DNA from: Patescibacteria group bacterium
GTDB lineage: Bacteria > Patescibacteriota > Minisyncoccia > Phycocordibacterales > PALSA-1337
NCBI GenBank assembly: GCA_018970245.1
Contig: JAGWWT010000008.1
Location: forward strand, 1-46,140
Direction: 5' to 3'
Length of the DNA stretch: 46,140 nucleotides
In this document: in pieces, positions 19,600 to 46,140 of the stretch
How positions within the stretch are numbered: position 1 is the stretch's first letter
How the letters are laid out: each line of letters starts with the position of its first letter
Notes under the pieces: generated by a model
What the model saw: the letters and a program-made list of their open reading frames with translations, nothing else
Database searches by the model: none
What the model was told of the DNA's origin: nothing
Made by a program: the position numbers and the translations under genes

Positions 19600-19628
19600 A
19601 TTATACCACAGAATGCAAATGTTGTCAA
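19600..19628 (-). promoter_or_regulatory. Consensus sigma70 promoter for the virion operon
   Basis: On the minus strand TTGACA (19628-19623) and TATAAT (19605-19600) are separated by exactly 17 bp. TGG precedes the -10, giving an extended TGn motif. Downstream is TATAAGG, shared with other promoters here. The first minus-strand gene starts about 50 bp downstream. Confidence 0.92.
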
Positions 19629-19660
19629 CTAAAAAATGCAATATTATCAAAAAAAGTTAT

Positions 19661-19742
19661 GGGAGGGGGGTGCCGCCCCACCGGGGGGTGGGCCATTTAG
19701 ACGCCACCTATCGGCGGCTTTAGACGCCAACATCAGTTGGCT
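19661..19742. other. G-rich tract and two hairpin repeats between divergent promoters
   Basis: Four G runs lie at 19661-19692 (GGG, GGGGGG, GGGGGG, GGG) with a C-rich segment between, so a G-quadruplex or a hairpin could form. The 11-mer TTTAGACGCCA then occurs twice (19696-19706 and 19719-19729), each followed by an inverted repeat. The second is GCCAAC-atca-GTTGGC (19726-19741). No gene is present. The segment lies just upstream of the rightward promoter and behind the leftward one, so it may be a regulatory site. Confidence 0.55.
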
Positions 19743-19775
19743 GGGGACAAAAAAGATCAAGACAGAAAAAAGGTA

Positions 19776-19804
19776 TTGACAGATTTTCATTTTCATGATA
19801 TAAT
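19776..19804 (+). promoter_or_regulatory. Consensus sigma70 promoter, rightward
   Basis: TTGACA (19776-19781) and TATAAT (19799-19804) lie 17 bp apart with an extended -10 (TGA before TATAAT). The -10 is followed by ACTTATATAAAG, which resembles the region after the promoters at 33086 and 37399. Its transcript enters an AT-rich leader and meets a terminator at 20079-20137. Confidence 0.92.
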
Positions 19805-23253: not shown

Positions 23254-23910
23254 ATGGCCAGTCCGATGAAGCTCGTCACCCACAGCGGCGGTTGCTGTGG
23301 TGTTCACGTCATCTACAATTTCGGCTTCCACGGTCCCGACGCCCGCAACTTCGAGTCGGAGAACGCTTACCGTGCTGAAGGCCACCAAGGCGGCCCCGTC
23401 ACTATGATGGAGACTCGTGTCGAAGCTCTGGATCGTCTGCTCCTCGTCTTTGACAATACCTATGGTGATCAGCGCAATGTTCAGGGCGGTCGGGGCACCG
23501 GCGGTGCTCGAATCGTTGAAGTCTGTCTCAACGAGCGACAGGTCGGAGCGTGGCGTCAGCCGTTGCTTGATCGTGGCTTCTTCGAGGCTTTCGACTTTGC
23601 CAATCGGAACAGCGGCCTTCGGGTTTACATGTTCTTCCGCTATGTCGAAAGCGATGCGCGTACCATCAACATGTCGCGTGCTCTTCGTCCGATGAATCGG
23701 GAACAGATCGTCCAGATCAACGCCCGTCCGGCTGTGCCTCCTGCCGCCGTCGTGGCGACGGAATACTACGCCCATCTTCAGAATGGTGGTCGTCGTGGTC
23801 CGTTCGACAGTCGGGGCGGTGTTCGTCTGGCTTACCCCCGTGTTCGTCGGATCGACCGTCGCTTGATCAACTCCGACGGCACTTCGACGTGGCAAATCGC
23901 GGAGGGCTAA
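23254..23910 (+). CDS. H-GG-CCG family protein, long member
   Basis: This 218-aa protein carries HSGGCCGVHVIYNF (residues 10-23), and near residue 120 FANRNSGLRVYMFFRY. Two smaller proteins at 31695 and 32020 share both motifs in the same order (HGGKCCG and HGGDCCG; SFVNGNSGN and RFVNCNTGN). Paired cysteines next to His and Gly suggest metal or thiol chemistry, which is an inference. The C-terminal 70 residues are Arg/Gly/Pro rich. RBS AAGGAAG precedes the start. The family is not one I can name. Confidence 0.7.
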   Translation: MASPMKLVTHSGGCCGVHVIYNFGFHGPDARNFESENAYRAEGHQGGPVTMMETRVEALDRLLLVFDNTYGDQRNVQGGRGTGGARIVEVCLNERQVGAWRQPLLDRGFFEAFDFANRNSGLRVYMFFRYVESDARTINMSRALRPMNREQIVQINARPAVPPAAVVATEYYAHLQNGGRRGPFDSRGGVRLAYPRVRRIDRRLINSDGTSTWQIAEG

Positions 23911-23911
23911 T

Positions 23912-24256
23912 ATGCTGCCTTTCTTCATCTATTTCGCCGGCATCGCAGAAGCTCTGAAGGACTTTTCGATCTTCGGGGCTGTGTTGATCGTTGGTGCCAT
24001 CGCCATCAATTTTTCGATTGATCTTGCAGAAGGGGGGAACTCTGCTTCACAAAACTTTGTGAAGAAGTCGAAGTGGCTTCTTGCTGTGACGCTGTTCTTC
24101 GCCATCTTCACCCCGTCGCAGCAGACGGTGTACGAGATGATCGCCGGCGAAGTCGCCCAAACGGTCGTCGAAACCGACACCGCCAAGAAGGCTCTCACTG
24201 TCGTCAACAACTGGCTGGATTCTGAATCCGTCAAGATCAAGGAGGATAAGAAGTGA
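23912..24256 (+). CDS. Two-span membrane protein
   Basis: This 114-aa protein has hydrophobic segments at residues 1-34 (FSIFGAVLIVGAIAINFSI) and 54-70 (WLLAVTLFFAIFTPS). A helical, acidic C-terminal tail ends IKEDKK. The FTPSQQTVYEMIAGE junction after the second helix recurs, in my memory, in uncharacterised phage membrane proteins. It starts 1 nt after the preceding stop and overlaps the next GTG start (GTGA). It may anchor or support the products of the surrounding genes at the membrane, which is an inference from co-location. Confidence 0.7.
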   Translation: MLPFFIYFAGIAEALKDFSIFGAVLIVGAIAINFSIDLAEGGNSASQNFVKKSKWLLAVTLFFAIFTPSQQTVYEMIAGEVAQTVVETDTAKKALTVVNNWLDSESVKIKEDKK

Positions 24257-25242
24257 ACAAACCTCTTCACTGGCTCGACTTCGACTACGATCCGAAGACG
24301 GACCCCAACACTGTCGACAAGGCTGTCGAGTGGCTGAAGAAGGAGGGCAGCAACTTCTGCGGCACCGCCAACTTCGCTGTCTTCTCCTCCGATGGCACCC
24401 ACAAGGAGAAGTTCGGCGCGGCCTGTCACTGGGACATTGGCAACGCTCTCAACATTCCTGCTGGTTACCGGGATTGTGTCGCCACGGAGATTCAGCAGAC
24501 CGGGGAGCGCAAACCGGAGTTCCAAAGGGGTGGTGGCGACTTCGAGTTGTTCCTTCAATGGCTGATCCATTCGTCGGTGTTCACTCCCTATATCCTCAAC
24601 CGTGACGACTCGAAGTCGTTGAAGAAGGGGATCGTCATTTCGTCGGATATTCCGACCCAGTTGTTGCAGAATCTCTGCATCATCGGTCGTTATACGACGG
24701 AAGCCCATGCAGGGGCCTTTGAAGCCTTCCGGTTTTTCGTGGAAAAGGGCTTCCTTCCCGAGGTTGCCTTCAGCATTGCCTTCCACACGCCGACCCGCAA
24801 CCAGTCTGTCTTCGACCCCAAGGTTCGGAACATCTACAACTACACCAGCCATTGTGCGTGGGGTTTGTGGGGCAATACGAAGGCGTTCAACAACTTCGTC
24901 AATCGCAAATTCGTCGGCCTCATTCCGAAGCAGACGTATCGCCAGATCGCTTCGATCATGGGCGGTTCGAAGCTGTGTTACGAAAAGGGCACGACGCCCC
25001 CACAGTCGACGTCTTGTCCGACGTTCATCAACCAGCTTCTGACGTTTGACGACTTCCGTAAAGAGCTGTCGAAGTTCCGCAAGGAAGACACCTCTGCTCC
25101 CGTCATCGTCAACCCCTTTGCCCCTCGCACCACTGTCACCGTTCGGCCCGAGCATTCGAGCTGCATCGAAATGGCAGAATTCATCCTTCCCTACCTCAAC
25201 GAGAAAGGTCTCGTCAATGTCTATGCTCACCAATTCGGCTAA
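24253..25242 (+). CDS. Unknown protein at the head of the peptide-ligase module
   Basis: This 329-aa protein starts at a GTG (24253) overlapping the previous stop, with AAGGAGGA 8 nt upstream. It begins NKPLHWLDFDYDPKTD, carries several cysteines (NFCGT, AACHW, RDCVA), and has an aromatic middle (NYTSHCAWGLWGNTKAF). No known motif was recognised. Its 3' end overlaps the class I amidotransferase start by 26 nt. The tight coupling suggests it works in the same pathway. Confidence 0.7.
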   Translation: MNKPLHWLDFDYDPKTDPNTVDKAVEWLKKEGSNFCGTANFAVFSSDGTHKEKFGAACHWDIGNALNIPAGYRDCVATEIQQTGERKPEFQRGGGDFELFLQWLIHSSVFTPYILNRDDSKSLKKGIVISSDIPTQLLQNLCIIGRYTTEAHAGAFEAFRFFVEKGFLPEVAFSIAFHTPTRNQSVFDPKVRNIYNYTSHCAWGLWGNTKAFNNFVNRKFVGLIPKQTYRQIASIMGGSKLCYEKGTTPPQSTSCPTFINQLLTFDDFRKELSKFRKEDTSAPVIVNPFAPRTTVTVRPEHSSCIEMAEFILPYLNEKGLVNVYAHQFG

Positions 25243-26053
25243 GGCCGTCAAACTCAAAGAAGGTCTGCACTCGGCGACGCCCTACAACCACACGGATATT
25301 CCCGACTTCGGTGGTCTCAAGGTCTTCGTCCTGCCCGGTGCCTTCTATGGTTCGTGTTGCGCCCTGATGGCCGAAGCCGGCTGCATCAAGGCTGACAGCA
25401 TCGCTGACGCTGACATCGTGGTCTTCGTCGGTGGCGAAGATGTCAACCCCATTCTCTACAACGAGAAGCCGGTCAACTCGACCTACTTCACCCCCAGCCG
25501 GGATCGTGAAGAGGTTATCGCTTACAAGGAAGCGGTTGCTCGTCGCAAGGTGATGTTCGGCATCTGTCGCGGCGCCCAGTTCCTTCACGTGATGAACGGC
25601 GGCAAGCTGTGGCAGGACGTTGACGGTCACGCTGGTCGGCCCCATCAGATGTTGGACGTCGAAACCGACACCTTCCTCACTGTTACGTCGCTGCATCATC
25701 AGATGCTCCGTGACAATCCCCGTCTCAACATCGTCGGCATCAGCGTCGAACAGCGCACCACTCGCTTCGAGGCGGAAAACGAGGTCGTTCACGTCGGCGA
25801 AAACAGCGTCCAGCCGGGTCTGGAAATCGAGGCCGGCTACTACACCGACAGCCGCTGCTTCTTCGTGCAGGGCCATCCCGAGATCGGCACCCCCCAGTAT
25901 CGTTCGTGGACGATGAACAAGCTGTTCGACTTCTACGAGGAAGCTGTGATGGGTGACGAAGGTCCCGACCCTGACACCACCCCGACTGTCATCGGTCTGC
26001 TGACGCATCAGCCGTCGGCGCTTGAGACGGAGGTTCTTGGTCAGATCGGCTAA
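25217..26053 (+). CDS. Class I glutamine amidotransferase-like (gamma-glutamyl hydrolase type)
   Basis: The start at 25217 (MSMLTNSAKAV) is favoured by AAAGG upstream; 25223 is also possible. The 278-aa product has a strand-rich start (VFVLPGAFYGSC), the GG of VVFVGGEDVN, the nucleophile elbow FGICRGAQFL (Cys117) and the His-Glu pair QGHPEIG (H220, E222). This is the complete Cys-His-Glu triad of the family. Members release ammonia from glutamine or cleave gamma-glutamyl bonds (PuuD-like). Beside ligases it probably supplies ammonia or trims the ligation product. Confidence 0.85.
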   Translation: MSMLTNSAKAVKLKEGLHSATPYNHTDIPDFGGLKVFVLPGAFYGSCCALMAEAGCIKADSIADADIVVFVGGEDVNPILYNEKPVNSTYFTPSRDREEVIAYKEAVARRKVMFGICRGAQFLHVMNGGKLWQDVDGHAGRPHQMLDVETDTFLTVTSLHHQMLRDNPRLNIVGISVEQRTTRFEAENEVVHVGENSVQPGLEIEAGYYTDSRCFFVQGHPEIGTPQYRSWTMNKLFDFYEEAVMGDEGPDPDTTPTVIGLLTHQPSALETEVLGQIG

Positions 26054-26082
26054 GTTCAGCAATTCAAAACGGGAGTAAGCCT

Positions 26083-27516
26083 ATGTGTGGTATCGTTGGC
26101 ATGGCTGGTGACATTCAGCACCAGCATCGTCAGATTTTCAAGGACCTGCTGACCATCTGTCAGCTTCGTGGGCGCGACTCCACCGGCGTCGTCCGGGTGA
26201 CGGGGAACAACGAGCCGGTTGGCTTGAAGCGTGTGGGTGTTCCCGAGTTCCTTCTGGAAACGAAGGCATACGACACGATGATCGACCAAGCCGACACCAA
26301 GGTTCTGATCGGCCACTGTCGGGCCAAGACCTACGGTGGGGTCAACATCAAGAACGCTCACCCGTTCGAGCATGGCAACATCATCGGCGTCCACAACGGC
26401 ACCCTCAAGGGTCACTACAGCATGGAGCGCTACCGCGACTTCGATGTGGACAGCGACCTCCTGTATTGGCACATCAGCGAATACGGTGTCGATGCCACCA
26501 TCCCGAAGCTCGACGAAGACGGCGCTTGGGCGTTGGTGTGGTGGGACAAGCAAGCCGCCACGCTCAACTTCCTGAAGAACAAGAGCCGTCCGCTCTACTT
26601 CACCTACACGAAGGACATGAAGGTGATGTTCTGGGCGTCGGAGCCGTGGTGGTTCGGCGCAGTCAGCCGCAAGACTGACCTGTGGGCCGGCAACGAAGAA
26701 GGGCACGTCTTCCTTCCGCTGGAAAACGACAAGCTGATGTCGTTCGAGATCAACAAGCTCGGCGTCGAACCCAACAAAATCTTCACGTTGAAAACGATGA
26801 AGGAGTTGAAGGGGGAGGTTCGAGGTTACACGGGAAACTATCGCAGCCATGGCTGGACTGGGGTGGAGTATCACGGTTCTTCCCATAACGGAGGGCAGGT
26901 AGCCGACCCTTTCAAGTCGGCAAGGGAAAGCGCAAAAACGCTTCTCGGAAAACTCGACGACAGCACGGACGACATTCCGTTTACAATGGGAAGCAAGCCA
27001 CTCCCCCTCCCGCCCCGAAAGCCGGTGGGCACGCAGACTCCGGGCGTGTCTGGGAGTACAGCGCCGTCTGTGAAAAAATCCGAGACATCTTCGTTGAGTC
27101 ATTCGGCTTCACCGACGGCCTTGACGAGTTCCATCTCTACTGCGCGGCCAAAGCTGTCATTGGTGAGCAATGCTTCGCCGGCCTCTCAGCAGGGAAGCAG
27201 CGAAAGCACCTCCGGAAAGCCCAGCGGCACCTGCATGACCTCCAAAGCTCCGTCGAACTTGATCGTCAAAACTTCACTTCGTGAAGTGGCGGGGTTGGAA
27301 TTCATCACCGACCACAAGACGGGGCGTGAATGGGAAACTTCGTTCTTCGATGAACAGACTGGTGGGTGCTGCTGCTTTTGCCGCGAACCCATCGGAGACC
27401 TCGCCGAAGTCGAAGAAATCTTCATCCGCGTCAACACTCCCGGCTTCCCTGCCGACGACGACATCTCCTTCATCTGTTCGTCGTGCCTCACTTCTTCCAA
27501 CACCGGAACCTGTTAA
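26083..27516 (+). CDS. Class II (Ntn) glutamine amidotransferase with frame anomaly and C-terminal zinc-ribbon-like part
   Basis: The N-terminal Cys2 (MCGIVGMAG) is the expected nucleophile. RGRDSTG (29-35), GHCRAKTYG (about 77) and VHNGTL complete the Ntn glutaminase pattern. Residues to about 300 look like a sound enzyme domain. From about 27000 to 27284 this frame becomes Ser/Thr/Pro-rich with atypical codons, while the -1 frame reads like a normal protein. After that the frame is again convincing and ends with a CCCFCREPIGD...FICSSCL zinc-ribbon-like module. The real gene structure may be glutaminase plus a frameshifted domain, with the ribbon as a separate gene (ATG at 27235). The 477-aa single reading should not be trusted. 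Confidence 0.75.
   Translation: MCGIVGMAGDIQHQHRQIFKDLLTICQLRGRDSTGVVRVTGNNEPVGLKRVGVPEFLLETKAYDTMIDQADTKVLIGHCRAKTYGGVNIKNAHPFEHGNIIGVHNGTLKGHYSMERYRDFDVDSDLLYWHISEYGVDATIPKLDEDGAWALVWWDKQAATLNFLKNKSRPLYFTYTKDMKVMFWASEPWWFGAVSRKTDLWAGNEEGHVFLPLENDKLMSFEINKLGVEPNKIFTLKTMKELKGEVRGYTGNYRSHGWTGVEYHGSSHNGGQVADPFKSARESAKTLLGKLDDSTDDIPFTMGSKPLPLPPRKPVGTQTPGVSGSTAPSVKKSETSSLSHSASPTALTSSISTARPKLSLVSNASPASQQGSSESTSGKPSGTCMTSKAPSNLIVKTSLREVAGLEFITDHKTGREWETSFFDEQTGGCCCFCREPIGDLAEVEEIFIRVNTPGFPADDDISFICSSCLTSSNTGTC
26889..27284 (+). other. Open -1 frame with coding character inside the amidotransferase gene
   Basis: This frame is open from just after a TAA at 26886 to the TGA at 27282, but has no ATG, GTG or TTG start. 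From about 27045 it reads VWEYSAVCEKIRDIFVESFG, then FHLYCAAKAVIGEQCFAGLS and RKHLRKAQRHLHDLQSS. This is a plausible helical domain with C-ending codons like its neighbours (GTC TGG GAG TAC AGC GCC GTC). It could be reached by a -1 ribosomal shift, or the contig may hold an indel. Confidence 0.5.
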
Positions 27517-27588
27517 CGTCGACACAGTGATTACTGTCGTCTTCGTTCTTCTTTTTTGTTCTCTCTTTTTTCTTTGAGGAGTTATCCT

Positions 27589-28578
27589 ATGACCAAGTTC
27601 ACCATCGGCGCCGACCCTGAACTGTTCGTCAAGCAAGACGGCGTTGCCGTGTCGGCACATGACCTCATTCCGGGCACCAAGAAGGCTCCTCACCCTGTGA
27701 AGGACGGTGCTGTGCAGGTCGACGGCACCGCGTTGGAGTTCAACATCGACCCGACTCCGCTGAACACCGGGACGGACAAGGAAGCCTTCAATCAGCGCAT
27801 CATTTCGGTGATGGCGCAGATGAAGGAAATGGTGTCCCAGAAGGGGAAATACTCCTTCAATCTGTCGCCGGTGCAGGACTACAGCGACGAATATCTGGCG
27901 TCGCTTCCTCCCGAGGCTGTCGAGCTGGGCTGCGACCCCGACTACAACGCCTACACCCTCCTTCCGAATCCGCGTCCCGACGTCAAGCTGCCGTTCCGTA
28001 CCGGCTCGGGTCACATCCACATCGGCTGGGGTGCTGACATTCCCGTCGACAATCCCGACCACATTTCCATCTGTGCCAACTTCATCAAGGTGATGGATCT
28101 CATCGTCGGCTTCTACATGACCATCATCGACCGTGACGGTGCTCGCCGTCGTGAGCTGTACGGCAAGGCCGGCGCCTTCCGTCCGAAGTCGTATGGGGTT
28201 GAGTACCGCACCCCGTCGAACGTGTGGCTGTCGTCGGTCGGTCGTCGTCGTTTCATCTTCGAGGCGACGAAGAAGGCGGTGTGGGTGGCGTCGACGCCCT
28301 ACGACTTGCCGAAGATTTTCCGTGTTTGCTACGGTATCCACAAGACGCAGGAAGAGGCCGAGCAGTACATTCAGGACGTCATCAACAACGGCGACTACGA
28401 GGCGGCTTACGAAGGTCTTCGCGGTATCGGTCGTGGGTTGCAGTATTGGGACGAAAGTTCCGATGCCAATCTGCAAGCTGAGCTTCGCAGTCGTCGGGCC
28501 TATGAGGCGAAGAAGAAGATCGACGAAGATGGGGTGAAGCCTGTCGAGACCGGCAAGAAGCCCAAGGCTGCCGCATAA
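27589..28578 (+). CDS. COOH-NH2 ligase, phiEco32-type (amidoligase type 2)
   Basis: The ATG at 27589 follows GAGGAG. The 329-aa protein opens TKFTIGADPELFVK, the hallmark start of the phiEco32-like amidoligase group. TGSGHIHIGW (residues 138-147) supplies the metal- and ATP-binding histidines, and GVEYRTPSNVWL the Glu-Arg of the glutamine-synthetase-like fold. Published comparative work (Iyer and colleagues, amidoligases) places these enzymes with amidotransferases and ATP-grasp proteins, as seen here. They should join a carboxyl to an amine using ATP. The substrate is unknown. Confidence 0.85.
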   Translation: MTKFTIGADPELFVKQDGVAVSAHDLIPGTKKAPHPVKDGAVQVDGTALEFNIDPTPLNTGTDKEAFNQRIISVMAQMKEMVSQKGKYSFNLSPVQDYSDEYLASLPPEAVELGCDPDYNAYTLLPNPRPDVKLPFRTGSGHIHIGWGADIPVDNPDHISICANFIKVMDLIVGFYMTIIDRDGARRRELYGKAGAFRPKSYGVEYRTPSNVWLSSVGRRRFIFEATKKAVWVASTPYDLPKIFRVCYGIHKTQEEAEQYIQDVINNGDYEAAYEGLRGIGRGLQYWDESSDANLQAELRSRRAYEAKKKIDEDGVKPVETGKKPKAAA

Positions 28579-28587
28579 GGAGGACTT

Positions 28588-29250
28588 ATGTCTGAAAAGA
28601 ACCCTATCTTTTGGGAAGACGCCCAACAAGCGATTGACCGAATCAGTGGTACCTACGTCACCTACGACAGTATGCCGGCCTATGTCGACAATATCAACGG
28701 CGGCCGTGATGGTGGTACTCTGTCTGCTGATCTACTGTTTCGACACAGTGGTGAGCGGAAGACAGTTCCCCTGTCTGATCCCGGCTTCCGTCGTTTCCGT
28801 CTTCTCCCGATGACTGGTTGGGTCAACAACGTCAAGTGGAAGAAGGCTCTGCTGGTCGAACGTCGGCCTGTTCGTCGCACCCGTCATGGGTATACCAACG
28901 ACAGCATCCAAGTCGGCGACATCACCCGAGGCTTCTACGAAGTCCAGTGGAGGAACTACAACTATGACATTGTCACCCGAGACGCTGGGTATGCCGAGGC
29001 ACATCAGGGAGTTTTTCCTCCACTCGAAGCCGTGCTCTCTCTGCTGCGAGAGGGAGACACAATCGCCGTTTCCCCTTTGTTCGCAGTGCATCGGGACGAT
29101 CTCGGTCTTCGCTGGCTTTATCGCCTTGGAAATCGCGTGGGTTTGTTTCCTGATGCGACTACCCTTCTTCTGATGAAGGCTCACGCCTATCTTCGTGAAG
29201 AAATCATCAACCATCCTCCCATTGCGGTGACGAATTTGAGGGAGTTCTGA
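28588..29250 (+). CDS. Unknown protein inside the peptide-ligase module
   Basis: This 220-aa protein has a strong RBS (AGGAGGA). It begins MSEKNPIFWEDAQQAIDRIS and has a beta-rich middle with many Arg (KKALLVERRPVRRTRHG, then QVGDITRGFYEVQWRNYNYD). A helical C-terminal half follows, with LRWLYRLGNRVGLFPDATTL. No catalytic motif was recognised. It lies between two amidoligases with 9 and 1 nt gaps and could be a partner or substrate-binding subunit. Confidence 0.7.
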   Translation: MSEKNPIFWEDAQQAIDRISGTYVTYDSMPAYVDNINGGRDGGTLSADLLFRHSGERKTVPLSDPGFRRFRLLPMTGWVNNVKWKKALLVERRPVRRTRHGYTNDSIQVGDITRGFYEVQWRNYNYDIVTRDAGYAEAHQGVFPPLEAVLSLLREGDTIAVSPLFAVHRDDLGLRWLYRLGNRVGLFPDATTLLLMKAHAYLREEIINHPPIAVTNLREF

Positions 29251-29251
29251 T

Positions 29252-30646
29252 ATGTCTTTCATTGAGAAGTATGTGGAAGGAGGGGACCTCAAGAAGATGA
29301 TCCCCCATTTCGAAATGAATCGGCCCGTTGCTCCTTCCAACGGTCTTGCTGACGTCGGCCTTGAGCTGGAAATGGAAGGGCGTGGCCTTCCGTCGGCTGG
29401 CGCTGTTGCCGGTCTGATCGCTCCGAAGAGCAACTCCACGTGGATCACTCACAATGACGGCAGTCTTCGTGGCGAGTCGTTGGAGTACGTTCTCGAACGT
29501 CCTTGCTTCGGCAACGAGATCGAACACATGGTCGGTGGGTTGTATACCTACTTCGGTCGGACTCGGTTCAATCTGTCCAATCGGTGTTCGACTCACGTCC
29601 ACGTCAACATCGGCGGCTACAAGGTCAACGAACTGACTTCGGTCATTCTCCTGTGGTCGATCTTCGAGGACATGCTGGTTCGGTGGTGTGGTGAACAGCG
29701 GACTACGAATCACTTTTGTCTCGGCTTCAAGGACACCAACGCTACGGTCGACGCATGGGATCGAGGTCTGAAGGACGGCGACTTCAACTTCACTGAAGGT
29801 ATGAAGTACACCGCTCTCAACCTCCGTCCCATCTTCGAGCGGGGCAGCGTCGAGTTCCGCACGATGCGGGCTGAAGAAAAACCGGACAACATCATCGAGT
29901 GGGCGAAGTTCTGCCTTGCCTTGGTTCGGTTCGCCAAGCAGAACTACAAGAATCCCTACGACATTGCTCACGCTTTATCGGAGCGTGGTGGTCTTGAGAT
30001 GTTCGCCAACATCTGCGAATCGGGTGGTATCAGCGGCGACTTCTTCGATGGTGTCATCGGTCTTCCCGGCAACGAAAACTTCAACATTCTGTCGGTGGAA
30101 AACTTCCGACGAACGCAGAAGTTGGCTCTCGGCTATCCGTGGTACGACTGGATTCCTGAGATCGACAAAGTGCACGTTCCCAACCCTTTCGGTAGGGGCG
30201 TTCCTGAAGCCCCGCAACCTGCTCGCCCTCGTGCAGCTCCTCAACCGAGGGGCCGCAGGAACGACTTCCTTGAACCAGATGAAGACGATGTTGGTCCTGC
30301 TGCGTTCAATATGGACCAGATTCTTGGACAAAATCAGGACGATCCGCCGCAACCTGATGAAGGTCTTGTGCAGCGTGCTCAGCAGATTTTGGCCAACGGG
30401 AGGGCAGAAGCAGCAGGTCGTAACCAAAATTTGGGTGAGCTTCTTCAGCAGGCTGAAAATCAGCTGCGTATGAATCCATTGCAACAAAGGGTTCGTATCG
30501 CTGAAGTACTACAGGTCAACGATCCTTGGTTCAATCCTCCGGTTGTTGATCCTATCGCACCGCCCCCACAAGAGCGGATTCGTATTCGTCCTGGGCCTGC
30601 TCCTTTCCCCGATCACCGTCTCGACCCTGAAGACCCTGGCTTCTAA
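29252..30646 (+). CDS. Amidoligase family protein with long disordered tail
   Basis: This 464-aa protein has the amidoligase landmarks: GLELEMEG (residues 36-43), then RCSTHVHVNIG with H115 and H117, and SVEFRTM with E201 and R203. These are the expected metal and ATP ligands of the glutamine-synthetase-like fold. From about residue 300 the sequence turns Pro/Gln/Arg rich (VPEAPQPARPRAAPQPRGRR) and then helical with many Gln. Neither part is usual for the core family and both could bind partners. It ends 9 nt before the ATP-grasp gene. Confidence 0.82.
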   Translation: MSFIEKYVEGGDLKKMIPHFEMNRPVAPSNGLADVGLELEMEGRGLPSAGAVAGLIAPKSNSTWITHNDGSLRGESLEYVLERPCFGNEIEHMVGGLYTYFGRTRFNLSNRCSTHVHVNIGGYKVNELTSVILLWSIFEDMLVRWCGEQRTTNHFCLGFKDTNATVDAWDRGLKDGDFNFTEGMKYTALNLRPIFERGSVEFRTMRAEEKPDNIIEWAKFCLALVRFAKQNYKNPYDIAHALSERGGLEMFANICESGGISGDFFDGVIGLPGNENFNILSVENFRRTQKLALGYPWYDWIPEIDKVHVPNPFGRGVPEAPQPARPRAAPQPRGRRNDFLEPDEDDVGPAAFNMDQILGQNQDDPPQPDEGLVQRAQQILANGRAEAAGRNQNLGELLQQAENQLRMNPLQQRVRIAEVLQVNDPWFNPPVVDPIAPPPQERIRIRPGPAPFPDHRLDPEDPGF

Positions 30647-30655
30647 GGAGGTTTT

Positions 30656-31438
30656 ATGCGCAACCCTGTTCGTCGTCAAATCCGTCGTCCCATCAACCGT
30701 GGTCCCCGGACTGTTGTCCTCCCTTACCGGGCGGGCAGCAGGGGGGCTACGGCCCTCGCAGCAGCTCTCGGCTGTCGTGTTCTCCGTCTGGAAGGCAGCC
30801 AATACCGTTATCGTGACGGTGATACCGTGATCAACTGGGGTAACAAAGATGCACACCGACTCTTCCCGCAAGCGCTCAACTCGTCGACCGAAGAAGCAAC
30901 GGACAAGCTCCGGTTCTTCCGTGCTCTCCAAGGTAGTGACATCACTCCTGCATTCTGGACGAATGCCGATGAAATCCCGAATGATGCGTTCCCTATCGTG
31001 TGCCGAACGATCCTCAACGGTCACTCGGGTCGAGGTATCGTCATTGCGGATTCGCGTGATCAGCTGGTGAGGGCACCCCTCTACACCCAGTATGTCAAGA
31101 AGCAGGCAGAGTTCCGCATCCATCTCGGTCGTCGGGGGAATGAGTATGTCACAATCGCCGAACAGCGTAAGGTTCGAGACCCAAATGTCGAGGTCACCGA
31201 CTGGCGAATTCGTAATCACGACAGTGGTTTCATCTTCCAGCGGCAGGGAATCGAAGTACCTGCGAGTGTCCGCGATGTCGCCCGTCTTTGCATTGAAGCG
31301 CTTCGCCTTGATTTCGGAGCAGTTGATGTTATCTATAATGTACGACAGCGACGAGCATACGTTCTAGAGATCAACACCGCTCCCGGTCTTGAGGGCCAGA
31401 CGGTTGAAGACTACGCCTCTTTCTTTCGGAGTTTGTGA
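30656..31438 (+). CDS. ATP-grasp ligase (RimK-like)
   Basis: This 260-aa protein has a strong GGAGG RBS. The flexible Gly loop is LNGHSGRGIVIA (residues 120-131), the central strand QYVKKQAEFRIHLG carries the catalytic Lys/Arg set, and the metal site is YVLEINTAPGLEGQT (E238, N240). These mark an ATP-grasp carboxylate-amine ligase of the RimK/D-Ala-D-Ala type, somewhat short at the N terminus. It should activate a carboxylate as an acyl phosphate and join it to an amine, so it complements the two amidoligases upstream. Confidence 0.85.
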   Translation: MRNPVRRQIRRPINRGPRTVVLPYRAGSRGATALAAALGCRVLRLEGSQYRYRDGDTVINWGNKDAHRLFPQALNSSTEEATDKLRFFRALQGSDITPAFWTNADEIPNDAFPIVCRTILNGHSGRGIVIADSRDQLVRAPLYTQYVKKQAEFRIHLGRRGNEYVTIAEQRKVRDPNVEVTDWRIRNHDSGFIFQRQGIEVPASVRDVARLCIEALRLDFGAVDVIYNVRQRRAYVLEINTAPGLEGQTVEDYASFFRSL

Positions 31439-31439
31439 T

Positions 31440-31640
31440 ATGACCTATCGGATCAAGCGTGCAGTGAACGGTGCCTACTACGTTCAGAAGCTCATCAAGT
31501 TCTTCTCGTATGGCCGTCGCATGGAGAAGTACAGTCGGGTGTCCCCTTTCTACTACAGCAGGGTAGGGGCTGAGGCTTTTGTCGACGCCCAGACTCGTTA
31601 CTGCAACTGTGGGTGCAGCTGTAAGAAGAAGAGCTGCTGA
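31440..31640 (+). CDS. Small basic protein with Cys-rich C terminus
   Basis: This 66-aa ORF starts at ATG 31440, one base downstream of the ATP-grasp stop. It is basic and aromatic (TYRIKRAVNGAYYVQKLIKF, then RMEKYSRVSPFYYSR) and ends RYCNCGCSCKKKSC, with five Cys in the last 12 residues. The ending could bind a metal. As it is small, follows the ligases directly and has a free reactive tail, it is a candidate substrate of the module. That is a guess. Confidence 0.65.
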   Translation: MTYRIKRAVNGAYYVQKLIKFFSYGRRMEKYSRVSPFYYSRVGAEAFVDAQTRYCNCGCSCKKKSC

Positions 31641-31694: not shown

Positions 31695-32027
31695 ATGAGC
31701 ATTCGTCGTCATGGTGGCAAGTGCTGTGGCATCACCCACATCTATGATCTGTATGACTTTCTCTACACAGGGGAAGGACGCTTCTACGAGAATCTGATGG
31801 CTGCCTGTAAGAAGGCGTACCTTCGGAACAAGAAGCGTTTTGAATGGTTCAACCCCAACGTCGGTGGGCACACCATCGAAGTGGTGACGGCAAATCAGGC
31901 GAGGTTCGACAGGGAGCTTGAGAACAATGGGTGGAATCTTTCCTACTCTTTTGTCAATGGTAATAGCGGCAACGTCTGTCGTGTTTATCACAAGACGTTT
32001 ACTTCGGAGGACCAGTTCAATGGCTGA
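31695..32027 (+). CDS. H-GG-CCG family protein, short member
   Basis: This 110-aa protein starts MSIRRHGGKCCGITHIYD at ATG 31695 with AAGGAG upstream. The second shared motif is SFVNGNSGNVCRVYHKTF near the C terminus. It is clearly related to the next gene and to the longer protein at 23254. The two motifs, with conserved His, Gly and paired Cys at the N terminus and Asn/Gly before V-Y-H at the C terminus, may come together to form one site. Role unknown. Confidence 0.7.
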   Translation: MSIRRHGGKCCGITHIYDLYDFLYTGEGRFYENLMAACKKAYLRNKKRFEWFNPNVGGHTIEVVTANQARFDRELENNGWNLSYSFVNGNSGNVCRVYHKTFTSEDQFNG

Positions 32028-32394
32028 TTGGCAACATCATGGCGGCGACTGCTGCGGCATCCGACACATCAACGGCTTCTTTTGTAGGGTAAAGACCATC
32101 ACTTTGATGAGGAATGCGTCTGAAGAAGAAAAGAAAAATCTTCTTGCTGACGAGAAGAAGTGGTTGAAGATTAACATCTGTGAGAAAATCTCCGACGCTC
32201 TTCACGACAACGCCCGTGATGACGACGAGATGTATCCGGGCGGCCTTCTGTTTGAAGTTGCCCTCACTCTGACTCAGCATCCCATCATTCACGACGCGGT
32301 GATTGAAGTTGGCTTCAAGGAAGTCAATCGTTTTGTCAACTGCAACACCGGCAACACTATCGTCGTCTATCATTTCTTCGTTGACAACGACTGA
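32020..32394 (+). CDS. H-GG-CCG family protein, third member
   Basis: This 124-aa protein starts at ATG 32020, overlapping the previous gene by 8 nt, with CGGAGG upstream. It carries HHGGDCCGIRHINGFF (residues 6-21) and ends with NRFVNCNTGNTIVVYHFF. The middle is helical and charged (ASEEEKKNLLADEKKWLK). It looks like a tandem duplicate of the preceding gene with a larger insert. A promoter for the next gene lies in its last 14 bases and just after. Confidence 0.7.
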   Translation: MADWQHHGGDCCGIRHINGFFCRVKTITLMRNASEEEKKNLLADEKKWLKINICEKISDALHDNARDDDEMYPGGLLFEVALTLTQHPIIHDAVIEVGFKEVNRFVNCNTGNTIVVYHFFVDND

Positions 32395-32428: not shown

Positions 32429-32803
32429 ATGAAGTATGGAGTATCAAATACTGAGGACCCGAAAGAGTACCGTAGAAGGCAGACAGCCGAGTCTCGTCGG
32501 AGAAACCCCATTCAGTATTTGATAAATCAAGTTAAGTATCGTTCTAAAAAACGAGGTCTTGACTTTGACCTTACTTTGTCTGATCTTGAGGTCCCTGAAG
32601 TTTGCCCTATTTTAGGAATTCCTTTAGAACATTCTGAAGGAGGGAGAACAGACAGTAGCTACTCTCTAGACCGGGTTGATAATTCCAAGGGGTACGTTAA
32701 AGGAAACGTTCGAGTTATCTCTTTTGGGGCAAACATGAGAAAAGGTGACTTGACAATTGCTCAAGTCTCTGACCTCCTTTCTTATATGAAAGGTGAATTA
32801 TAA
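32429..32803 (+). CDS. HNH-type endonuclease (homing endonuclease candidate)
   Basis: This 124-aa protein starts at ATG 32429 after AAAGGAAG. A basic N terminus (YRRRQTAESRRRNPIQYLIN) precedes CPILGIPLEHSEGG, SLDRVDNSKGYVKGNVRVIS and GANMRKGDLT, a pattern typical of small free-standing HNH nucleases in phages. It is more AT-rich, with A/T-ending codons, than the module upstream, and has its own promoter. This suggests recent insertion. The stop overlaps the next start by one base (TAATG). Confidence 0.7.
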   Translation: MKYGVSNTEDPKEYRRRQTAESRRRNPIQYLINQVKYRSKKRGLDFDLTLSDLEVPEVCPILGIPLEHSEGGRTDSSYSLDRVDNSKGYVKGNVRVISFGANMRKGDLTIAQVSDLLSYMKGEL

Positions 32804-33045
32804 TGCGATGTGCCATTTGCGACGCAACCCTGTCGCCTGAGAGCGTACAGTGGAGTCACACCCACAATGATTGGGAGCCTTGCCCTTCCTGTCTTGTTGC
32901 AATTTCTGAAGTCTTCAACACTGATATGGACGAAGAAGAGATCACCCGTGTTCTGGAAGACGAACTCGCTGATGGTCCCGACATCATCAGTCTGGAAGAC
33001 GCAGACAAGTACCGTCGGATGGAGGAAATCCATGTGTCAACCTAA
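32803..33045 (+). CDS. Small zinc-ribbon-like protein
   Basis: This 80-aa protein has CAICD at residues 3-7 and CPSC at about 27-30. These two Cys pairs could form a zinc ribbon. The C terminus is acidic (DMDEEEITRVLEDELADGPD). It is the last gene before the AT-rich stretch and promoter for the replication genes. Unknown role; an early regulatory or DNA-binding protein is possible. Confidence 0.6.
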   Translation: MRCAICDATLSPESVQWSHTHNDWEPCPSCLVAISEVFNTDMDEEEITRVLEDELADGPDIISLEDADKYRRMEEIHVST

Positions 33046-33085: not shown

Positions 33086-33114
33086 TTGACAGAAGACGCA
33101 GATGATGGTATAAT
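33086..33114 (+). promoter_or_regulatory. Consensus sigma70 promoter for the replication operon
   Basis: TTGACA (33086-33091) and TATAAT (33109-33114) lie 17 bp apart with TGG before the -10. CCTTATATAAGG follows. The start of the primase-helicase gene is 146 bp downstream, after an AT-rich leader. Confidence 0.92.
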
Positions 33115-33259: not shown

Positions 33260-34876
33260 ATGGGTATTCCAGTTAAAACACATCAGACTTGCCCTCACTG
33301 TCTCCATAACGGGTGCTACACTGTCTTCGATGATGGTGGGTCCTATTGTCACAGTTGTCAGAAGACGACAAAGGCAGACGGTGGTAGTGGCTTTGTAGAG
33401 AAGGAAGACGGTCCTCCTAAGCCGTTCTCTGCTCTTACCACTGTCTTTCGTCCCTTTACTGCTCGTAGTCTTTCTGCTGAGACAGTGAAGCGATACGGAG
33501 TCGATGTCGGTAATGAAGCAGCTACCTACGAAGCTAAGTATCCTCTGTATTCTAACGGAGAGCACGTAGGCAACAAGGTGCGAGCACCCGGCAAACGGTT
33601 CTCCTTTGAAGGTTCTGTAAAGGACCTCGCCCTCTTTGGCCAGCAGGCTTTTCCTCCGGGTTCTGCTAAGTTCATCACTGTCGTTGAAGGACAGGATGAT
33701 GCTATGGCAGCTTATCAGATGATGGGAAGTAAGTATCCTGTTGTCTCTGTCCACTCTTCGTCCACCGCAGAGCGGGACTGCCGAAACAATTTTGAATACC
33801 TCAACTCGTTTGACAACATTGTCTTTGCTTTCGACAATGATGAACCGGGTCTGAAGGCAGCGAAAGCAGCAGCCGCTGTTGGCTTCCCTCTCAACAAGAT
33901 CAAGGTTCTCACTACTCGAAAGTATAAGGACGCTAACGAATACCTCATCAACCGTGAAGCTGATCAGTATACACGAGAATGGTGGCAGGCTCCGCCTTAT
34001 CGTCCTGATGAGTTGAAGTTTGGTAGTGATCTTTTGCCTGAGATTCTCGACAGGAAGGATGCCTTCTCAGTTCCAATGCCGTGGGACGGATTGAATGAGA
34101 AGCGTGCTGAACTTCGTCTGTCTGAGGCTATCATCATTACCGCAGACACTGGCGTTGGTAAGACGTCTTTCATCAAGCACATTGAGCATAAGCTCCTCAC
34201 CGATCCTACTGTGATTGAGAAGGGTTACGGTGTTGGCTTCCTGCATTTGGAGGAACCTAATGGTGATACCGCATTGGGTCTTCTGTCTGTGCACAACAGT
34301 CAGCCTTACCATCTTATGCGCCGTGACGAATGGCCTGTTGAGGAAATCAAAAAGGCTTACACTGAAGTCCTCGATAACAATCGGGTTGTGGTATGGGACC
34401 ACTTTGGCAGCAATACAGTGGACGCTGTCCTCAACAAGGTGCGACATATGGTCGCTCTTGGCTGTCGCTACATTGTGCTGGACCACCTTTCGATTGTGGT
34501 ATCTGACCAGTCAGGCGACGAAAGGAAGCAGCTAGATGAAATCGCAACTAAACTCAAGACACTCACGATGGAGTTGGACATTGCGCTTGTTGCAGTTATC
34601 CATACAAATCGACAGGGTCAAATTCGAGGCACTGCCGGCGTGGAGCAGCTTGCAAATATTGTCATTCGTCTTGAGCGAGACAAAACCGAGTCAAATGAAT
34701 GGCGCCGGAATATCACTAAGGTGTCAGTGGAGAAAAACCGTTTTAGTGGTTTCACTGGCCCGGCTTGTTACCTGTGGTTCAATCATCACACGGCTCGGCT
34801 CATTGAGCTGGATAAAACAGCTGCGGCGCTTTATGAACAAGGTGGCGTCCTCAACGCGGATCAACTTCCTTTCTAA
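33260..34876 (+). CDS. Bifunctional primase-helicase (T7 gp4-like)
   Basis: This 538-aa protein joins three modules. The zinc-binding module has CPHC (11-14) and CHSC (30-33), which reads the primase recognition site. The TOPRIM primase has VVEGQDDAMAAY (E143) and FAFDNDEPG (D192, D194). The RecA-type hexameric helicase has Walker A TADTGVGKTS (294-303), then YIVLDHLSIVV (Walker B-like) and a DEIATKLKTL segment. Length and order match T7 gp4 (566 aa). It primes lagging-strand synthesis and unwinds DNA at the fork. The gene ends 9 bp before the DNA polymerase gene. Confidence 0.93.
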   Translation: MGIPVKTHQTCPHCLHNGCYTVFDDGGSYCHSCQKTTKADGGSGFVEKEDGPPKPFSALTTVFRPFTARSLSAETVKRYGVDVGNEAATYEAKYPLYSNGEHVGNKVRAPGKRFSFEGSVKDLALFGQQAFPPGSAKFITVVEGQDDAMAAYQMMGSKYPVVSVHSSSTAERDCRNNFEYLNSFDNIVFAFDNDEPGLKAAKAAAAVGFPLNKIKVLTTRKYKDANEYLINREADQYTREWWQAPPYRPDELKFGSDLLPEILDRKDAFSVPMPWDGLNEKRAELRLSEAIIITADTGVGKTSFIKHIEHKLLTDPTVIEKGYGVGFLHLEEPNGDTALGLLSVHNSQPYHLMRRDEWPVEEIKKAYTEVLDNNRVVVWDHFGSNTVDAVLNKVRHMVALGCRYIVLDHLSIVVSDQSGDERKQLDEIATKLKTLTMELDIALVAVIHTNRQGQIRGTAGVEQLANIVIRLERDKTESNEWRRNITKVSVEKNRFSGFTGPACYLWFNHHTARLIELDKTAAALYEQGGVLNADQLPF

Positions 34877-34885
34877 GGGTAAACG

Positions 34886-36763
34886 ATGTACCTAACCCAC
34901 CCTGAAGATAAGTTGTGGGCTTCAGATATTGAAGGTGACGATCTCTATCCTGCTGTCGAAAAGGTGTGGTGCCTCTGTGCCATCAACGTCAAGACAGGTG
35001 AGACTGTTCGCCTTCGTACTGTAGCTGACATGTTGAAGTGGATTGTCGAACAGAAGGCCAATGGCTTCAAGTTTGTTTTCCACAATGGACTTGGATATGA
35101 CGCACCAACTCTCGTCAAGGTTGTGAAGTGTGTCCTCGGAGTTAACGATGTCATCGACACAATGATGATGTCAATGCTGTACGTACCCAACGGTCATATC
35201 GCTGGTGTTTACGGACACAGCCTGAAGTCTTGGGGTGAGCGTCTTCAGTTTCCTAAGACAGAGTTTGACGACTTCAAAGGTGGTTGGACTCAGGAGATGG
35301 AAGACTACTGTGTCAATGACGCAGAGCTTTGCCGTCGAATCTATGTAGCCCTTCGTCAGCGTATGCTGATGGTTGGCTTCACAGATGAAGGGTTGAAGTT
35401 GGAGCATCAAAGCTGGGCATTGATCCAGCAGCAGAAGCGGAATGGCTTTCACTTTAACCAGAAGGAAGCTCACATTCTTCTGGCGACTATCCGACAAAAG
35501 GAGAAGGAACTTGAAGGACGAATCCACCAACTTTGGCCACCTCAGCTTACACTCGTTTCGACATTCAAACGACCTATTAAAAAAGATGGCAGCTTTAGTG
35601 CAAACTATGTCCGACACCTACAGCAATACGACAAAGTTGAACTCGGGCCAGATTCGACATACTACGACTGCTATTCTTACGTCCCTTTCAACATTGGAAG
35701 CCCAGCTCAGCGAGTTGAAAGACTGTTGGAACTCGGTTGGACTCCTAGAGAGTTCACAAAACCCTCAGACAGTCATCCTAATGGGCAGCCCAAACCAATA
35801 ACCAAGGGTAAGCTGTCTCCATCTCTCGAAGAGTTTATTGAGAACAATCCTCATCCGGGGGCTGCTCTCATCGCTAAGTGGATTGATTACAATGCCCGTG
35901 GCAACATGATCAACACTTGGTTGGAAGCGTACAATGATGACAGCGGTTGTATTCATGGCAGTCTTTGGCTTGCTAATACCCTACGTTACCGGCATAGTGA
36001 CCCTAACACGGCTAATATCCCGGCTGTACGTATCGGTAAAGACGGTCATCCTCTCAAACGAGACAGCGGTGTCTTCACCTATGAAGCCCGAGACTTGTGG
36101 GAAACCCGCGACAAAGTAAACCGTAAGTTGGTGGGCGTCGACGCTAAGGGCATTCAGCTCCGAGTTCTTGCCCACTATCTGAATAACAAGGAGTTTATGG
36201 ATGCAGTCGTCAACGGCGACCCACACTCTTTCAACCAAGAGGTTGGAGGTTTTGCAACACGTAGTATCGCAAAGACTTTCATCTATGCTTTCCTATTGGG
36301 AGCAGGAGATGCAAAGGTCGGGCAAATCATTGGAGGATCAACGCAAGACGGTCGAGAAATTAAGGAAAGATTCATCAATAATTTCCCTGGACTTGCAGAC
36401 CTACTTGCTCACCTTGATGGACAGATCAAAAGAACTGGCCGAATTGTCCTTTGTGACGGGACACCCATTGCAGTCACCTCTCCACACACTCGCCTTGGGT
36501 ATCTACTCCAAGGAGAAGAGTCCCGAATCATGAAGAGGGCTGCTGTATACACCGCTATTGAAGTAGCACGTCGACAGCTTGACGTCCTCAAAGTAGGAGA
36601 CATTCACGATGAATGGCAAAACGATGTCCTCAACCGCGACGTCCAACAGTTCGCCGAAGAAGTCTGTCCGCAGTCGTTCCGTCGAGCAGGGGAGTCCTTC
36701 AACTACCGATTGCCCATCGACTGTGACGCCAAGATCGGACTCACGTGGGCTGAAACTCATTGA
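34886..36763 (+). CDS. Family A DNA polymerase (T7 gp5-like) with unusual active-site residues
   Basis: This 625-aa protein has an intact 3'-5' exonuclease: ExoI SDIEGDD (D14, E16), ExoII FHNGLGYD (66-72) and ExoIII YCVNDAE (141-147). Motif A is GVDAKGIQLR: Asp419 is the catalytic metal ligand, but Ser is Lys421 and the usual steric-gate Glu is Gln424. Motif B is RSIAKTFIYAFLLGAG, with K463 and Y467 (the position that is Phe762 in E. coli Pol I), but Leu471 replaces the usual Tyr. Motif C is HDE (574-576). It is shorter than T7 polymerase (704 aa). It replicates the phage DNA with the upstream primase-helicase. Confidence 0.93.
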   Translation: MYLTHPEDKLWASDIEGDDLYPAVEKVWCLCAINVKTGETVRLRTVADMLKWIVEQKANGFKFVFHNGLGYDAPTLVKVVKCVLGVNDVIDTMMMSMLYVPNGHIAGVYGHSLKSWGERLQFPKTEFDDFKGGWTQEMEDYCVNDAELCRRIYVALRQRMLMVGFTDEGLKLEHQSWALIQQQKRNGFHFNQKEAHILLATIRQKEKELEGRIHQLWPPQLTLVSTFKRPIKKDGSFSANYVRHLQQYDKVELGPDSTYYDCYSYVPFNIGSPAQRVERLLELGWTPREFTKPSDSHPNGQPKPITKGKLSPSLEEFIENNPHPGAALIAKWIDYNARGNMINTWLEAYNDDSGCIHGSLWLANTLRYRHSDPNTANIPAVRIGKDGHPLKRDSGVFTYEARDLWETRDKVNRKLVGVDAKGIQLRVLAHYLNNKEFMDAVVNGDPHSFNQEVGGFATRSIAKTFIYAFLLGAGDAKVGQIIGGSTQDGREIKERFINNFPGLADLLAHLDGQIKRTGRIVLCDGTPIAVTSPHTRLGYLLQGEESRIMKRAAVYTAIEVARRQLDVLKVGDIHDEWQNDVLNRDVQQFAEEVCPQSFRRAGESFNYRLPIDCDAKIGLTWAETH

Positions 36764-45897: not shown

Positions 45898-46140
45898 TGC
45901 AGCTAAGACTGCTAAGACAGCTACTGGTGTTCCTGCTTCTGTCTCTCTAGCCCAGTACGCTCTTGAGAGTGCATGGGGTCGACTGACGACAGGAAAAAAC
46001 AATTACTTCGGTATTAAGGGCAACGGCACTAACTGTACTCTGTGTTGGACTCATGAAGACTACCACGGTAAGTGGGTAAAGATTCAAGCGTACTTCCAAG
46101 ACTACGACAGTATCGAATCTGCCTTTCTCGCTCATGCTTT
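45872..46140 (+). CDS. Endolysin, 5' part (glucosaminidase-like); continues at 1
   Basis: The ATG at 45872 overlaps the end of Rz by 26 nt and encodes MQLPQQVIDAAKTAKTATGV. It then has SLAQYALESAWGR, with the probable catalytic Glu, and KNNYFGIKG. The last 119 bases repeat the contig start in frame, so the whole gene is 432 nt (143 aa) when closed. Located between spanins and holin, it cuts the cell wall at the end of infection. A muramidase-type or glucosaminidase activity is possible; the sequence fits the glucosaminidase family best. Confidence 0.85.
   Translation, partial: MQLPQQVIDAAKTAKTATGVPASVSLAQYALESAWGRLTTGKNNYFGIKGNGTNCTLCWTHEDYHGKWVKIQAYFQDYDSIESAFLAHA
46022..46140. repeat. Right copy of 119-bp terminal direct repeat
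   Basis: Identical to bases 1-119. See the left copy. Removing one copy restores the intact endolysin gene. Confidence 0.95.

Follow-up and report, generated by a model that had tools for sequence, protein, structure and literature searches.

The 46,140-nt contig JAGWWT010000008.1, called the window in the following, is a phage genome by its gene content. On its plus strand, from 24253 to 31438, it carries a cassette of seven genes which, on balance, we explain as a cytosolic pathway that would build an amide-linked, peptide-like modification via a gamma-glutamyl stage. As judged from its sequence, it is one of the already known phage amidoligase cassettes, of the Zobellviridae/RIO1-like type. 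Such cassettes have been named for years, with no tested function found, and are carried by hundreds of phages whose hosts include Pseudomonas, Escherichia and Vibrio. What is new in our analysis is the evidence that gamma-glutamyl trimming is one step of the cassette, together with an undescribed family of small proteins, recognised by an HGGxCCG motif, that accompanies it.

Results

Gene content and active sites

The cassette genes are real and intact. They are contiguous and all lie on the plus strand; the gaps between 24253 and 31640 range from -26 to +72 nt, and since neighbouring genes nearly touch or overlap, the arrangement is like that of one transcription unit. This tight run had been reported by a first-pass annotation made from the letters alone, and the residues and motifs read there (Cys117, H220 and E222; Cys2; GADPE; LELEMEG; HVHVN) were all found again, the catalytic ones being invariant in relatives. 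Its five enzyme families stood as well, namely the class I and class II glutamine amidotransferases, the COOH-NH2 ligase, the amidoligase and the ATP-grasp enzyme; for the class I protein the reading is refined below, since it resembles gamma-glutamyl hydrolases more than an ammonia supplier.

The class II (Ntn) glutamine amidotransferase (26083..27516, plus strand; PF13522, E 3e-13) scores 50.4 for GATase_6 against a Pfam gathering cut-off of 27, and its Cys2, Arg80, Asn105, Gly106 and Asp123 are invariant in 36 sequences; the protein has no synthase domain and bears a CxxC pair at its C-terminus. The COOH-NH2 ligase type 2, a putative glutamate-cysteine-ligase (GCS)-like amidoligase (27589..28578, plus strand; PF14395, E 2e-8; phrog_3815, E 2e-71), scores 34.0 for COOH-NH2_lig (Pfam cut-off 25), contains the GADPE motif and keeps D9, E11, H142, H144, R198, E205 and R207 invariant in 36 sequences. 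The other putative GCS-like enzyme, of the Amidoligase_2 family (29252..30646, plus strand; PF12224, E 3e-7; phrog_7469, E 1e-47), scores 30.9 against a Pfam cut-off of 22 and contains LELEMEG and HVHVN; G39, E41, E43, H118, H120, N193, E204 and R206 are invariant, in agreement with the GxExE, HxH and ExR motifs, and a low-complexity C-terminal extension varies in length.

The product of the last gene (30656..31438, plus strand; phrog_2599, E 6e-60) is, by sequence comparison, a member of the ATP-grasp superfamily and a RimK-like ligase. RimK alpha-L-glutamate ligases share with it the ATP-grasp core with invariant Lys, Asp, Glu and Asn and are its best PDB neighbours, but its score for Pfam RimK (PF08443) is 17.6, below the gathering cut-off of 21. 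The family profile matches RimK/alpha-glutamate ligase structures in the PDB with E 1e-11, and K72, E140, R142, K160, D212, E226 and N228 are invariant in the aligned domain. The first-pass annotation had held that its reading would fall if profile searches failed to place the genes at 27589, 29252 and 30656; the first two pass Pfam cut-offs, and the third is placed by PHROG and the PDB profile despite its low RimK score. As for fusion partners, the extra regions of long homologues contain no informative Pfam domain.

Hundreds of phages carry these genes in the same order, and the gene set is therefore more than a chance assembly. A tblastn search with the COOH-NH2 ligase matched 316 phage records. 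In a set of 97 loci, each 12 kb or longer and fetched mostly via this ligase so that its own count holds by construction, the class II amidotransferase, the COOH-NH2 ligase, the amidoligase and the ATP-grasp gene are each present in 97, the uncharacterised gene U2 in 96, the class I gene in 87 and the second uncharacterised gene, U1, in 80. This co-occurrence of five core genes in 96 to 97 of the 97 loci, with invariant catalytic residues, supports the coherent ligation pathway proposed in the first-pass annotation, and we regard one pathway of ATP-dependent amide formation as very probable. A scan for bacterial versions of the cassette returned 11 contigs, all from metagenome-assembled genomes, and no match to known anti-phage defence families was obtained.

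A probable gamma-glutamyl-removing step

The class I protein (25217..26053, plus strand; PF07722, E 1e-18) has the class I amidotransferase fold of the Peptidase C26 type and is a predicted gamma-glutamyl hydrolase. It scores 68.3 for Peptidase_C26 (Pfam cut-off 20.5), and its triad, numbered from the start codon ATG at 25217, which falls inside the 3' end of U1, consists of Cys117 in GICRG, His220 and Glu222; Cys-His-Glu is invariant in 27 sequences. The nearest solved structures are those of Lin1909, of a protein labelled 'probable glutamine amidotransferase' (7d4r, 7d50, 7d53) and of PuuD; 7d4r we take to be the SpuA gamma-glutamyl polyamine hydrolase. The fold and the motif set GICRG...HHQ...HPE are shared with hydrolases of the PuuD/SpuA type, but similarity is low. 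The two best NCBIfam models, gamma-glutamyl-GABA hydrolase and gamma-glutamyl-CDP-amidate hydrolase, both score far below their cut-offs, and with 23.6 against 266 the protein lies outside the PuuD equivalog, so that the likeness of function is one that we infer. By these comparisons it resembles gamma-glutamyl hydrolases more than an amidotransferase that supplies ammonia.

Further evidence comes from the phages that lack the class I gene. The search for gamma-glutamyl cyclotransferase covered flanks of up to 10 kb, extended to at most 15 kb in a few annotated phages, and none was detected in the window. In a non-redundant set of 138 loci, each flanked by 3 kb or more at both ends, the cyclotransferase occurs in 26 of the 27 loci without class I, versus 28 of the 111 with it (Fisher p 4e-12, relatedness uncorrected). 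On a tree of four cassette proteins, the class I gene is missing in 10 separate clades, nine of which carry the cyclotransferase. When cyclotransferase evolution was simulated independently on this tree (midpoint rooting, 5000 runs), as few loci without both enzymes appeared in 0.5% of the runs (p = 0.005), as many class-I-less clades with the cyclotransferase in 1.0% (p = 0.010), and a frequency difference as large in 0 of 5000. In one remote locus, L203, neither enzyme was found in the searched flanks.

The complementarity of the two genes, an exchange of one type of gamma-glutamyl-removing enzyme for another at the sequence level, supports functional replacement, in which either enzyme would be able to remove the gamma-glutamyl group, and it is probable that the pathway includes such a step. 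Precedents exist in PuuA/PuuD and in the butirosin enzymes, which attach a gamma-glutamyl group at the cost of ATP and take it off again later. The complementarity of the two unrelated enzymes leads to a concrete and cheap assay, the cleavage of a gamma-glutamyl amide.

The uncharacterised genes U1 and U2

U2 (28588..29250, plus strand) is poorly conserved in sequence and is modelled well by AlphaFold2 (predicted local distance difference test, pLDDT, 94.3; predicted template modelling score, pTM, 0.88). Its N-terminal barrel gives Tudor/SH3-like matches with Z up to 4.9, at about 2 A over about 50 residues, an arrangement that is common; no clear fold match was found outside this barrel, and the overall fold matches the counterparts in phages CW02 and Vp_R1. 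U2 may be a binding or scaffold subunit.

U1 (24253..25242, plus strand) encodes 329 aa of an uncharacterised family from a GTG start with AAGGAGG upstream. Cys58 and Arg146 are present in all 67 sequences and Ser108, Glu150 and His200 in most, the His being nearly invariant, and U1 could be an enzyme. Its AlphaFold2 model (pLDDT 85.8, pTM 0.87) has no PDB match at E<=0.001, and the best structural match, blasticidin S deaminase with Z 2.5, was treated as noise.

The HGGxCCG family

Three window open reading frames (ORFs) next to the cassette share an N-terminal motif of the type HGGxCCGxxHIY, with a less strict N.NSGN motif later: one upstream (23254..23910, plus strand, an HSGGCCG variant) and two downstream (31695..32027 and 32020..32394, both on the plus strand). 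We regard them as accessory genes. In the family, H-x-G-x-C-C-G close to the N-terminus and an Asn further on are invariant, and one to four copies are found per locus. Nothing significant was obtained for these proteins in Pfam, PHROG, NCBIfam or PADLOC, and a tblastn search of one member against phage records gave no match. When 2.9 million viral contigs were scanned independently with the family profile, 20 loci were recovered, of which 16 have cassette genes within the fetched 8-kb flanks; in the other four, a cyclotransferase lies close to the family gene and the contig ends within about 2.4 kb. Besides the window, members occur in the loci L007, L048, L051, L053 and L127-L145, and more divergent relatives include PaP3 ORF55, a Bruynoghevirus protein (probability 88% and E 3e-6 by profile comparison). 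Still more divergent proteins with an N-terminal CC motif were sought around cassettes by a simple pattern, which returned 56 sense versus 22 antisense hits, too noisy to count as members. Since the family may just be restricted to this phage group, the link to the cassette is one of position and occurrence and no proof of a shared function.

Phage genome around the cassette

Terminase, portal, scaffold, major head protein and internal virion protein genes lie on the minus strand of the contig, and primase/helicase, DNA polymerase A, nuclease, thymidylate synthase and ribonucleotide reductase genes on the plus strand. The first 100 bases are repeated exactly, starting 119 bases from the end (segments 1-119 and 46022-46140 of the window), and for this reason the contig is probably complete at about 46.0 kb, either circularly assembled or terminally redundant. 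It was binned with a 1.42-Mb bacterial assembly, with no sign of integration in these data. There is no known close isolate, the best terminase and polymerase matches being below 60% identity.

As in annotated relatives, the cassette of the window lies just upstream of the replication genes, with primase/helicase starting at 33260 and DNA polymerase behind it at 34886, both on the plus strand. Between the ATP-grasp and primase genes, a small CxxC...CxxC protein (MRCAICDATL...WEPCPSC, 32803-33045) is kept in many relatives. On the upstream side, a predicted membrane protein of 114 aa (23912..24256, phrog_3878) overlaps the start of U1 translationally; of 97 loci, only 6 have a homologue of it close to the cassette. 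The 66-aa Cys-tailed ORF on the plus strand (31440..31640), with which the first-pass annotation closed the module, lies outside the conserved cassette: phmmer found no homologue in the loci first compared, in the close relatives inspected it does not follow the ATP-grasp gene, and no role for it is supported. Its product was accordingly dropped as a candidate substrate.

Perfect sigma-70 consensus sites, a match that alone says nothing on function, stand at 19776 (+), 19628 (-) and 33086 (+); those within 19600-19804 face outward at a divergent gene boundary, and 33086-33114 precedes the primase gene. The GC content of the cassette (24253-31438) is 56.1% versus 48.0% elsewhere, a difference exceeding that in all 150 related loci. 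Recent transfer of the cassette, which this would suggest, was rejected because the same loci, L053/L056 and L009, are nearest both for primase and polymerase and for the majority of the cassette genes.

Discussion

Proposed pathway

We infer a single pathway with the following order of steps. The class II amidotransferase would release ammonia from glutamine, and both GCS-type ligases, like the RimK-like ATP-grasp enzyme, would spend ATP to join carboxylates to amines, with glutamate as a likely unit. Gamma-glutamyl groups would then be removed, by the PuuD-type class I hydrolase here and by the cyclotransferase in phages without class I, and U2 may act as a near-obligate binding or scaffold subunit. 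In phage PaP3, ORF32-48 are middle genes with a peak at 10-30 min (PMC4707531), and by annotation they include the cassette from the COOH-NH2 ligase (ORF48) to the cyclotransferase (ORF42) together with replication genes; the cassette of the window may likewise run in mid-infection, alongside replication.

Several points weigh against this explanation. Our literature search found no biochemistry or functional experiment on any cassette member, and no acceptor gene is evident inside the cassette. The class I superfamily also contains true amidotransferase subunits with the same catalytic triad, and the hydrolase call is one of homology. Neither ligase family has a match to a solved structure in the PDB by profile search, and the match between the COOH-NH2 ligase and Amidoligase_2 profiles is not significant. 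Cyclotransferase genes beyond the fetched flanks would be missed, and the complementarity could stem from lineage history beyond what the simple simulation corrects.

The acceptor and alternative explanations

For the acceptor, our first choice, a tentative one with less than an even chance, is cytoplasmic cell-wall precursors: the ligases would furnish peptidoglycan precursors with amide or peptide links of an unusual kind, with blocking infection by further phages as the specific purpose. For the same kind of cassette this has already been stated: a 2017 paper describes in RIO1-like podoviruses a seven-gene 'peptidoglycan modification cassette' with a presumed role in blocking superinfection, its function being unproven (PMC5498523), and the same proposal is cited for the amidoligase and glutamine amidotransferase of phiEco32 (PMC10580990). 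The idea goes back to Iyer 2009 and Hardies 2013, as cited in later papers. Among the 316 matching phage records, the organism names that are listed first point to Gram-negative hosts throughout; however, this follows equally from the phage families concerned. In addition, no test of the proposal was found in the literature, no cassette member matches a known wall enzyme by profile, and in PaP3 the cassette belongs to the middle rather than the early genes, late for a block of superinfection.

A host or phage protein is a less likely acceptor, and a free small molecule stands at the same level. For protein tagging, the RimK-like enzyme and the amidoligases would put glutamate or an amide on the target, with U2 as target-binding adaptor, and HGGxCCG proteins could be among the targets. 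The nearest solved relatives of the ATP-grasp protein are indeed alpha-glutamate ligases, RimK among them, U2 has its SH3/Tudor-like part, and HGGxCCG genes adjoin the cassette. But two further ligases and two glutaminase-type enzymes exceed the needs of a single tag, the structural matches of U2 are weak (Z <5), and HGGxCCG genes are not recognised in most cassettes. A more specific form, in which the HGGxCCG proteins are partners or acceptors in a protein-modification system with a dedicated, multi-copy and fast-evolving substrate and U1 is an additional enzyme, we hold to be improbable. U2 and the HGGxCCG family are defined proteins that can be tested for a role as scaffold and acceptor, respectively.

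Hypermodification of phage DNA with an amide-linked group would fit the primase/helicase and DNA polymerase genes that adjoin the cassette and are co-expressed with it in PaP3, yet no known base-activating genes were recognised among the scanned window ORFs and its thymidylate synthase and ribonucleotide reductase are ordinary; we give this little credence. An auxiliary nitrogen and amino-acid metabolism, as proposed for Phage-ZRK32 in an account where no test of the enzymes themselves was found, deserves equally little, since the near-obligate U2 and three ATP-using ligases fit a dedicated product better than bulk nitrogen flux.

Comparison with known systems

The closest arrangement is that of Zobellviridae (Salinivibrio phage CW02, Citrobacter phage CVT22, Pseudomonas phages O4, PA11 and TC6, and T5S1-k141_18163), which have the same gene set in a near-constant order: U1 (identified by profile), class I, class II, COOH-NH2 ligase, U2, amidoligase and ATP-grasp, then primase/helicase and DNA polymerase. 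They differ in that their COOH-NH2 ligase is only 43-48% identical to that of the window and small extra genes are interspersed among the cassette genes. CW02 and T5S1 carry, besides class I, a cyclotransferase, of which none was detected in the window, and in CW02 the U1 homologue is at the opposite end of the linear record. The pairing of both amidotransferase types with two amidoligases, which the first-pass annotation considered unusual, is thus the usual form in Zobellviridae-like phages, and a seven-gene cassette of this sort had been published in 2017 (PMC5498523).

The relation to phiEco32-type clusters that was suggested there is borne out by synteny, in a rearranged form without class I. 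The phages phiEco32 (Kuravirus) and PaP3/LUZ24 (Bruynoghevirus) share the COOH-NH2 ligase, U2, the amidoligase, the class II amidotransferase and the ATP-grasp gene, but the class II gene lies behind the amidoligase and a cyclotransferase replaces class I; Vp_R1 and 7-11 have a similarly rearranged form without class I. The RIO1-like cassette (PMC5498523) shares a gamma-glutamyl amidoligase, a second amidoligase, an ATP-grasp enzyme and a glutamine amidotransferase in one block near replication genes, and where it has a gamma-glutamyl cyclotransferase, the window instead carries the C26 hydrolase.

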